Shown here piece by piece: positions 3,681-5,557 of a DNA stretch of 39,200 nt. The notes below the pieces were generated by a model. The model saw only the letters and a program-made list of their open reading frames with translations, did not search any database and was not told the origin of the DNA. Made by a program: the position numbers and the translations under genes. The stretch spans positions 1 through 39,200 of the forward strand of contig CATLGX010000007.1 in NCBI GenBank assembly GCA_949948785.1, read 5' to 3'. The first letter of the stretch is position 1. The number at the start of each line of letters is the position of its first letter. The stretch is from an uncultured Christensenella sp. Its GTDB lineage: Bacteria; Bacillota; Clostridia; Christensenellales; Pumilibacteraceae.

Positions 3681-3689
3681 ATTTTACCA
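3681..3689 (-). promoter_or_regulatory. Extended -10 promoter of the Xre gene
   Basis: TGGTAAAAT is read on the minus strand, ending 6 nt before the ATG. No good -35 box is present, which fits an extended -10 promoter. An operator-like half site (AATACCCG, 3693-3700) lies just upstream of it. Confidence 0.55.
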
Positions 3690-3708
3690 CAAAATACCCG
3701 CTTTGGAG

Positions 3709-3738
3709 TTAACATACCCATTATGGGTATGATATACT
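3709..3738 (+). promoter_or_regulatory. Promoter of the zinc-ribbon membrane protein operon
   Basis: TTAACA (3709-3714) and TATACT (3733-3738) are 18 nt apart. The first Xre operator occupies nearly the whole spacer, so bound repressor would block polymerase. Confidence 0.6.
3713..3731. promoter_or_regulatory. Operator 1 for the Xre repressor
   Basis: CATACCCATTATGGGTATG is a perfect 9+1+9 palindrome in the divergent promoter region. It lies between the -35 and -10 boxes of the plus-strand promoter. Confidence 0.75.
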
Positions 3739-3749
3739 TGTGCGAACCA

Positions 3750-3768
3750 AATACCCATTACGGGTATT
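3750..3768. promoter_or_regulatory. Operator 2 for the Xre repressor
   Basis: AATACCCATTACGGGTATT repeats the operator 1 core with a single arm mismatch. Its centre is 37 bp from that of operator 1, and it falls just downstream of the expected plus-strand transcription start. Confidence 0.72.
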
Positions 3769-3815
3769 GTGTGTAAATCGGCAAGCGTTTATGCCGTCTA
3801 ATCTAAGGAGAAATA

Positions 3816-4676
3816 ATGGCTATCATATCGTGTCCGAGTTGCGGTAAATCGGTTTCCGATAAATCGTTCAGTTGCGTGCACTGCGGTGCTCCGCTGGTGC
3901 GAGAGCCGGATAATTCGCCGCCGTTCGACAAAACGGGTGTCGGCGACGGCGGACAACGCGGTCTTGGTTCCGCCGTAGCCGTTGAACATTCGAATATGGA
4001 TTATATGGAAGCATTTTTAAAAGACGATGCAAAAACGGCGAGGATGGTCGGTAAATATAATAAACTGAACGCCGTTTACAAGCGAATCGCTTGGCTGTGG
4101 GATGTTTTTATTTTAGTCATTATCGGGTTGGCGGTTGTGCTTTCGCAAGGCACGGATTTTTTAAATACATTTGCAGGCTCATATTTAATTATGTTGCTTA
4201 TCGGAGTCTTATTGGCGCTGTTGCTCGGGTTTCGGTTTATTTATAACAGAAGCGTTGAGTTTGTTTATTCTTTGCGTTGCGCAAAATGGATTAAAAAGAA
4301 CGGTTACGACGTTTCGCAATACATAATCGATAAATTTAATGAAACGGAAGCTAATCTCGATAATGAGGGGGTAATAGGCACCGGCGAATTATTCGATTTT
4401 ACCGCCGCTTCTTTGTTTGCGAAAGACGAGCGGGCGCGAGAAACCGTCAAATTGCATTTTATAATACGAACGATGATAGCCGCGGTTTTATCGGCGTGGT
4501 TGGTGATACCGGCACCTATAATTTTATCTTTTCTTCTGACGTCGAGCTTCAATGTGGGTGTGCTCTTATCGGCGTTGATACCCATGGCAATATTGCTATT
4601 GGCTTACTTTATAACATTTTTTACATTTACCGTAAAAGACAGCGCCAAAGTCAGAAAGTTATATTATAAAGTTTAA
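3816..4676 (+). CDS. Zinc-ribbon multi-pass membrane protein, function unknown
   Basis: The protein opens with a zinc ribbon with cysteines at 6, 9, 20 and 23 (CPSCG and CVHCG). A polar linker follows to about residue 88, then four hydrophobic segments near 91-110, 118-140, 213-240 and 245-272, with a soluble stretch of about 70 residues between the two pairs. No enzyme motif is visible. An AAGGAG site 5 nt upstream supports the ATG. It is first in a two-gene operon divergent from the Xre repressor. The next gene encodes a protein of the same length and layout, so the two are probably diverged paralogues that may work as a pair. Confidence 0.8.
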   Translation: MAIISCPSCGKSVSDKSFSCVHCGAPLVREPDNSPPFDKTGVGDGGQRGLGSAVAVEHSNMDYMEAFLKDDAKTARMVGKYNKLNAVYKRIAWLWDVFILVIIGLAVVLSQGTDFLNTFAGSYLIMLLIGVLLALLLGFRFIYNRSVEFVYSLRCAKWIKKNGYDVSQYIIDKFNETEANLDNEGVIGTGELFDFTAASLFAKDERARETVKLHFIIRTMIAAVLSAWLVIPAPIILSFLLTSSFNVGVLLSALIPMAILLLAYFITFFTFTVKDSAKVRKLYYKV

Positions 4677-4696
4677 TTTAAGGCGGAGTAAAATTT

Positions 4697-5557
4697 ATGG
4701 AAAAACAAAACAAATATGATAAAGGACCAATCTGTCCCGAGTGCGGATGTCCGATAACCGACGGCATAGAAAAATGTCCTGAGTGCGGATGCCTGATTGC
4801 GCGAAGAGATATGAATGAATCGGCGGCCGACGACGGACGAAAGAGCCGCATCCAAAGCGAAGTAGATACAGTCGGGTGTGTAAAAGCGTGGGAAAACGGC
4901 TGTCGCTCCGAAAAAACGACGGTAAAAGTTTTTGAGTATTTGTGCATTGCCTTGAATATCGTCGCCGTCGCTCTTGTAATTGCCGCCATTATTCATTTGA
5001 GCGTAAAATGGTCGGACATACACGACAATATTTTAATGTATCACGTATTCTGGCGGAATATGGTAAGATATTGCGTATGGTTCGGCATGGCCTTGGCGTT
5101 TGCGAAATTATTCGACGATATTTCCGAATGTTTGAAAATAAAACGATGCGCGCTATGGCTGCACGCGAAAGGCGTGGAGACGTCATCCTGCATGACTTTA
5201 AAATCTTACGCCGCCGCAAAACGTCGCAAGGCAGGGTCGCTGTCTTGCAATCTATACATAGCTTACTATGCGCGGCATACGCAATATCTGAGAGCGCACA
5301 TAATCGCTTTCGTTATTAAAAGCGTCATAGTGTTTATTTGTTTTATCGCGGGCGGAATATGCTTGGGTCCGGGATTGAACGAGGTCGTGTTTCTTTCGGA
5401 TACGGACTATATAGATTGGGCGGTTGCAATCGGATGTTGCGTCGGAGGTTTGGCCGCGTTCGGCATGGATACGATTGCGGACTATATCTTTAAAAAGATA
5501 ATGGCTCCGCGGGCAGAGAAATGGCTTTTCGAATCAAAGGATAATAACCGCACTTAA
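4697..5557 (+). CDS. Second zinc-ribbon multi-pass membrane protein, function unknown
   Basis: This protein has 286 residues, the same as its upstream neighbour. The zinc ribbon uses the motif CPECGC twice (cysteines 13, 16, 18 and 27, 30, 32). Four hydrophobic segments follow, two near residues 76-100 and 115-140 and two in the C-terminal half. Residue identity with the neighbour is low apart from this plan. The gap between the genes is 20 nt and contains a GGAG site, so they are co-transcribed. Cysteines also occur in the membrane part, which is unusual. No terminator was seen before the rpmG promoter. Confidence 0.78.
   Translation: MEKQNKYDKGPICPECGCPITDGIEKCPECGCLIARRDMNESAADDGRKSRIQSEVDTVGCVKAWENGCRSEKTTVKVFEYLCIALNIVAVALVIAAIIHLSVKWSDIHDNILMYHVFWRNMVRYCVWFGMALAFAKLFDDISECLKIKRCALWLHAKGVETSSCMTLKSYAAAKRRKAGSLSCNLYIAYYARHTQYLRAHIIAFVIKSVIVFICFIAGGICLGPGLNEVVFLSDTDYIDWAVAIGCCVGGLAAFGMDTIADYIFKKIMAPRAEKWLFESKDNNRT

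Follow-up and report, generated by a model that had tools for sequence, protein, structure and literature searches.

A small Xre repressor with twin predicted operators beside two zinc-ribbon membrane proteins in Pumilibacteraceae

Comparison of operators, promoters and gene neighborhoods across several clostridial genomes indicates that a small Xre protein very probably keeps both its own gene and two divergently transcribed genes, A and B, which encode paralogous zinc-ribbon membrane proteins, switched off. These genes lie in a stretch of 39,200 nucleotides (hereafter the window) that represents one contig of the 1.58-Mb genome (G000, 84% complete) of a gut bacterium. Under our main reading, a sensor-less Xre dimer would bind the operators O1 and O2 and shut off A-B and, via the weak site O3 and the overlapping promoter, would limit its own synthesis from a leaderless mRNA. 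The co-transcribed paralogues would form a single membrane complex, with the zinc ribbons, the central loop and the C-termini in the cytoplasm. For these two steps taken jointly we estimate a probability of roughly 60%. Predicted repression of A-B by Xre is well supported; autorepression of xre is suggested by the strongly conserved anatomy of the locus, and a complex with cytoplasmic ribbons by a natural fusion, the operon, the predicted topology and structural models. The anatomy of the cassette is solid and general.

The cassette and its predicted operators

The cassette, composed of xre and the divergent A-B pair, is located between rbsK and rpmG-secE-nusG (Table 1). In the genus-mate G007, rpmG follows rbsK at a distance of only ~270 bp and all three genes are missing; given their presence in one genome and absence from the same site in the other, they behave as a cassette, with no target-site duplication visible against the empty site of G007, which is too diverged. 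The sequence directly preceding rpmG-secE-nusG varies strongly among the genus members examined (L106-L122), in which the rbsK neighbor is common to the window and G007 only; this site may be insertion-prone. Near the cassette (L054 7666-8408 in G013:C7; L109 near 9331), and also elsewhere in these genomes, there are REP-like repeats whose translation yields CHSERSEE-type peptides. A phage or plasmid origin of the cassette was rejected, given that scans of viral contigs with Xre and with the B alignment detected no relative, the operator pattern matched nothing in these contigs, and tblastn searches of the plasmid set with B and of the phage set with A were equally empty.

Table 1. Features of the cassette in the window and DUF6809 genes facing orthologous repressors at other loci
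Feature	Position	Strand	Basis or remark
xre, 68 aa	3468..3674	-	PF01381 match; orthologues in G013 and G016
-10 of xre, extended, TGGTAAAAT	3681..3689	-	read from sequence; 6 nt before ATG
O3, degenerate operator ACCCGCTTTGGAG	3696..3708	.	read from sequence and locus comparison
A-B promoter TTAACA-18-TATACT (predicted)	3709..3738	+	same layout at six other loci
O1, predicted operator CATACCCATTATGGGTATG in A-B promoter spacer	3713..3731	.	perfect 19-bp palindrome
O2, near copy of O1, AATACCCATTACGGGTATT	3750..3768	.	just downstream of predicted start point
Protein A, 286 aa	3816..4676	+	zinc ribbon C6, C9, C20, C23 and four long hydrophobic helices
Protein B, 286 aa	4697..5557	+	zinc ribbon C13, C16, C27, C30 and four long hydrophobic helices
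DUF6809 gene	L092 5399-5671		divergent from Xre orthologue; same operators
DUF6809 gene	L095 5611-5892		divergent from Xre orthologue; same operators
DUF6809 gene	L096 5629-5892		divergent from Xre orthologue; same operators

The product of xre is a predicted single-domain Cro/CI-type HTH_3 repressor (E = 8.3e-14; 51.8 bits against a Pfam gathering score of 23), in agreement with a preceding sequence-only reading of the window, which had recognized no sensor domain. The best NCBIfam match of Xre, over 66 residues, is to RstR-family phage repressors (NF041951); however, its score of 65.5 bits is under the family cut-off of 80, its 68 aa compare with 108 positions in the model, and no filamentous phage genes are present nearby. 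The orthologues in G013 and G016 show 75-84% identity, and the recognition segment S-x-N-x-YASYEQGRTEP is conserved together with the operators. Exactly 6 nt separate the end of the -10 hexamer (TAAAAT or TATAAT) from the ATG of xre at the window locus and in G013 and G016, a placement from which a leaderless mRNA is predicted; thus, the xre transcript is probably leaderless. The lambda cI mRNA made from PRM is leaderless. At the DUF6809-type loci described below, the Xre gene has a Shine-Dalgarno-like sequence instead of this layout.

O1, which is symmetrical about a central T, fills the spacer of the predicted A-B promoter, whose -10 is TG-extended, and O2, 37 bp away from start to start, spans approximately +5 to +24 of the A-B transcript predicted from this promoter, as counted from a +1 placed by the -10. 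The palindrome in the spacer and its near copy are thus as the sequence-only reading had described them, whereas the degenerate O3 and the -10 placement of xre go beyond it. O3 lies on the xre side of O1, 20 bp from it centre to centre, and relatives hold the intact site ACCCATTTTGGGT at this position. The best palindrome of the 141-bp intergenic region scores 9, compared with 5.3 +/- 1.0 in 500 dinucleotide shuffles, a score of at least 9 being reached by a fraction of 0.004, in a test that ignores the second copy and conservation in other genomes. Because one such palindrome arises in 0.4% of shuffles, a single site alone would be weak evidence; the conservation of the predicted operators across loci is stronger evidence than the palindrome statistics. 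Pattern searches of the same genome, one of the checks proposed at the outset, revealed no further intact O1/O2-type site; intact sites are private to the A-B locus, and a wider regulon was accordingly rejected. When single-mismatch matches were sought in other genomes, real operators emerged in G016 and G013 only; most of the other matches examined (e.g., in G003, G012, G017, G081 and G039) were dismissed as chance occurrences inside unrelated coding genes.

Recurrence of the repressor and its partners

The repressor (59-84% identity) and the operators recur at six other loci, namely in G013, in G016, and at four loci in other Clostridia (L092, L093, L095 and L096). G016 is Anaerocaecibacter muris CLA-AA-M11, a cultured genus-mate in the family Pumilibacteraceae. 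All seven loci, the window included, share operators of the ACCCA-N3-TGGGT type embedded in TTGACA-17/18-TATAxT promoters; at the six others, the sites include a pair 19-20 bp apart, one member of which is invariably located in the promoter of the divergent gene. L094 encodes an Xre orthologue without operator sites. On this comparison, the assignment of the predicted operators to the window Xre, at positions where it would occlude the A-B promoter, is well supported, and the recurrence beside orthologous Xre genes strengthens the original proposal that A-B is the direct target of a repressor with twin operators.

The targets themselves vary. The cassettes of the window, G013 and G016, all within one genus, occupy three different chromosomal sites, and the divergent target in G013 and G016 is a relative of A/B. 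In G013, A and B are fused into one 526-aa protein that lacks zinc ribbons, accompanied by the repressor and operators; this natural fusion points to joint action of A and B and to a ribbon that can be dispensed with. At L092, L095 and L096, the target, under a promoter of almost perfect consensus, is DUF6809 (PF20648) rather than a zinc-ribbon protein, whereas at L093 the divergent gene runs off the contig. The DUF6809 loci share the Xre family, the operators and the divergent promoter layout with the window, but the DUF6809 product, of ~90 aa and with neither a predicted TM helix nor a zinc ribbon, is unlike A and B; a literature search for DUF6809 returned no paper. Given that the same repressor and operators face different target genes, they form a unit that has been paired with more than one kind of target. 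Conversely, G010 encodes homologues of A and B without Xre or operators (L055 6729-8390, G010:C45), which, judging from the sequence, is a natural escape from the repressor. The G010 pair comes directly after a sigma-70-like gene and a zinc-ribbon gene and has a plain promoter without operators.

Profile searches of the family and the order with A and B retrieved relatives with zinc ribbons and four transmembrane helices (4-TM proteins), and their Xre neighbors were detected by a six-frame HMM scan. Where relatives were identified by similarity alone and upstream DNA is visible, 12 of the 12 further loci have a small HTH gene in divergent orientation; with the genus members that have full A/B included, a divergent small Xre is found at 15 of 16 loci and is missing in G010 (G005:C105, at a contig end, was left out of this count). 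By comparison, in 263 kb of other loci, none of the 205 genes and none of the 36 membrane genes has such a neighbor, and 3 of 20 other zinc-ribbon proteins from the first search do; two further ones, at L066 and L067, have HTH neighbors that are weaker. The control loci are a non-random sample of genomes, so that the contrast may be somewhat overstated. Homologues lacking the repressor and operators, named in the sequence-only reading as evidence against its proposal, do exist, at a single locus among the 16. The Xre/4-TM coupling is strong but not obligatory. The Xre proteins of the 4-TM loci comprise about nine subfamilies; in a Pfam check, seven of them, as well as two from L066 and L067, all passed as HTH_3 or HTH_26. 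Palindromes in the divergent region are significant at three of seven unrelated Xre/4-TM loci (L145, L149 and L154) and not at L146, L153, L155 and L143/L151.

Several neighborhoods in this set have features of their own. L066 90-1162 (G005) and L067 2535-3658 (G044) encode zinc-ribbon membrane proteins outside the 4-TM family, next to different HTH genes (HTH_26 and a weak HTH_3). Upstream of the 4-TM gene at L145, L147, L148, L149, L152, L153 and L155 lies a gene for a ~180-aa zinc-ribbon protein with about two TM helices; in L155, this protein bears a W-L motif resembling the one in the 4-TM family (RCxxWL), which gives it the look of a half-length member. At L149 (5208-7928, G135:C2), Xre adjoins what by eye are a heavy-metal P-type ATPase-like gene and an ArsR/CadC-like regulator, a possible metal link in this one case. 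At L157 (1554-4263, G109:C15), genes for short zinc-ribbon membrane proteins stand five in a row, and several of the proteins have YGQP-type repeats; this array looks like a tandem expansion.

The repressor and its membrane partners differ sharply in their rates of change. Of nine pairs with Xre identity above 60%, eight combine an Xre identity of 62-81% with a 4-TM identity of 17-36%, and the ninth has a 4-TM identity of 70%; within the genus, A/B identity is 20-27%, compared with 87-96% for NusG. The two distance sets are correlated (Mantel r = 0.44, p = 0.0004), which points to partial co-inheritance of Xre and the 4-TM protein. This contrast could result from diversifying selection on the membrane proteins or from their repeated replacement by distant homologues.

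Pairs of Xre with membrane proteins (YoaS-like, PA2784-like and PA4076-like) were tabulated by Makarova et al. (2009; PMC2701414), who kept them out of the type II systems, no membrane toxin being present. The likeness consists in a conserved small Xre accompanied by a membrane protein of unknown role; however, the membrane families in that table are not described there as zinc-ribbon proteins (PMC2701414), and here two paralogues or a fusion are controlled, twin operators are mapped, and the target is swappable. The zinc-ribbon 4-TM family fits this loose kind but is not among the families named in that work (PMC2701414), and our literature search found nothing on Xre beside zinc-ribbon membrane proteins.

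Properties of the membrane proteins

Both A and B possess two intact N-terminal CxxC pairs; with the Pfam zinc-ribbon models (PF13240/PF13248) they score below the gathering thresholds (A 22.7 against 27, B 16.3 against 25), and their relatives G010 A and L146 pass. AlphaFold2 models (mean pLDDT 79 for A and 83 for B; pTM 0.65 and 0.76) contain four long hydrophobic helices in each protein. The pairwise identity is 22% over 163 aa, and profile comparison aligns the two over 199 columns with 97.6% probability, which identifies them as distant paralogues; the initial description of A and B as paralogous four-helix proteins of equal length and little sequence identity is upheld. The Lys and Arg residues of A are confined to the two termini and the central loop and are absent from the outer loops, and those of B are mostly in the same regions, with two in one outer loop; this placement should put the zinc ribbon and the bulk of the soluble portion on the cytoplasmic side, where both termini of A are also predicted.

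A fold search against the PDB produced nothing at E <= 0.001 for either protein (the best match of B, to ExbB, has a non-significant E of 1.3), and a PDB sequence search returned low-scoring zinc-finger and designed-protein matches only. No functional family was assigned to A or B by Pfam, NCBIfam or PADLOC; in particular, the PADLOC defense models gave no match at E <= 1, the Pfam SdpI family did not match, and no toxin family was matched in these three collections. TcaA and other zinc-ribbon membrane proteins resemble A and B in having an N-terminal ribbon followed by membrane helices, and match them weakly; however, nothing outside the ribbon matches, and A and B have four long helices and no large outer domain. 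The suggestion that the zinc ribbons could be the sensing part was not supported by comparison: the G013 fusion is ribbon-less, the ribbon of a G186 4-TM homologue has decayed (CP to RP), and the DUF6809 targets have none. As a general rule it was rejected, and the ribbons are probably not the sensor.

Release of the repressor and alternative readings

Given the lack of a sensor domain in Xre, release would most likely come from the target side. In a third step, an A-B complex that meets a ligand or membrane stress might capture Xre at the membrane and so raise its own expression; we tentatively favor this route, in which zinc ribbons would not be essential, by analogy. In Bacillus subtilis, SdpI captures SdpR at the membrane, raising its own expression, and the likeness consists in a small sensor-less autorepressor beside the multi-pass membrane protein that it represses (PMC1626106). 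Membrane capture supplies the signal there, and would do so here if the systems are alike. The differences are several: SdpR is an ArsR-type repressor, and an SdpRI-type system would combine such a repressor with an SdpI-family protein, whereas the window Xre is of the HTH_3 type and neither A nor B matches SdpI; SdpI lacks the zinc ribbons of A and B; sdpR and sdpI form one operon, whereas xre and A-B are divergent; and no toxin gene was recognized beside the window cassette. The main difficulties for membrane capture are the outer loops, which in A are short (14 and 7 aa) and leave little room for an extracellular ligand, and the DUF6809 target: given that the same Xre and operators drive this non-membrane protein, a general release route may lie elsewhere. 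A broader generalization, which we consider doubtful, would place these loci in an order-wide class of modules without a name as yet: a conserved Xre lacking a sensor would guard hyperdivergent zinc-ribbon 4-TM effector-receptors, which would release themselves by capturing Xre at the membrane in the course of an arms race against some outside agent. The regulator and its operators would then be an interchangeable cartridge that also drives DUF6809.

Among the alternatives, it is conceivable, though less likely than not, that A-B is an ordinary envelope-homeostasis pair (e.g., in transport or lipid handling) kept at low steady expression by constitutive autorepression with no dedicated signal. 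A single-domain repressor without a sensor, a layout of negative autoregulation, the housekeeping neighbors and the plain promoter of the G010 pair would all fit, whereas the diversity of Xre subfamilies and the very rapid divergence of the membrane proteins point to something beyond a constant low level of expression. This divergence beside a conserved repressor, together with the cargo-like intergenic insertion, would be expected if induced A-B altered the membrane for defense against, or exclusion of, phages or bacteriocins, in an arms race where Xre sets the basal level only; yet neither a match to defense models, nor a defense island adjoining the loci seen, nor a relative in searches of the phage set with A and of the plasmid set with B was detected, and we regard this function as rather unlikely.

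An addiction module, with A-B as a membrane-perturbing toxin, Xre as a purely transcriptional antitoxin, and persistence of the cassette through the harm caused by loss of Xre, appears unlikely. Small Xre antitoxins are common, the distribution is patchy with different chromosomal sites within one genus, the twin operators look tight, and the G013 fusion weakly matches a 2TM effector model (E = 0.022); however, G010 keeps A and B without Xre or operators, the toxin searches were empty, and Xre-membrane pairs were excluded from type II systems for want of a membrane toxin (PMC2701414). Finally, that the palindromes are chance or terminator-like and the gene pair a coincidence is exceedingly improbable: a single palindrome of this quality does have a shuffle frequency of 0.004, but the constancy of the site, of its spacing and of its place in the promoter across seven loci contradicts this explanation, as does the 15/16 association with Xre.

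One Xre-plus-membrane kind is here given a definition by sequence, through its predicted operators and promoters, the A-B fusion and the target swap. The contrast between a conserved repressor and its fast-changing membrane partner is reproducible. Furthermore, the cultured carrier, A. muris CLA-AA-M11, makes the release of a sensor-less Xre beside membrane proteins directly testable.
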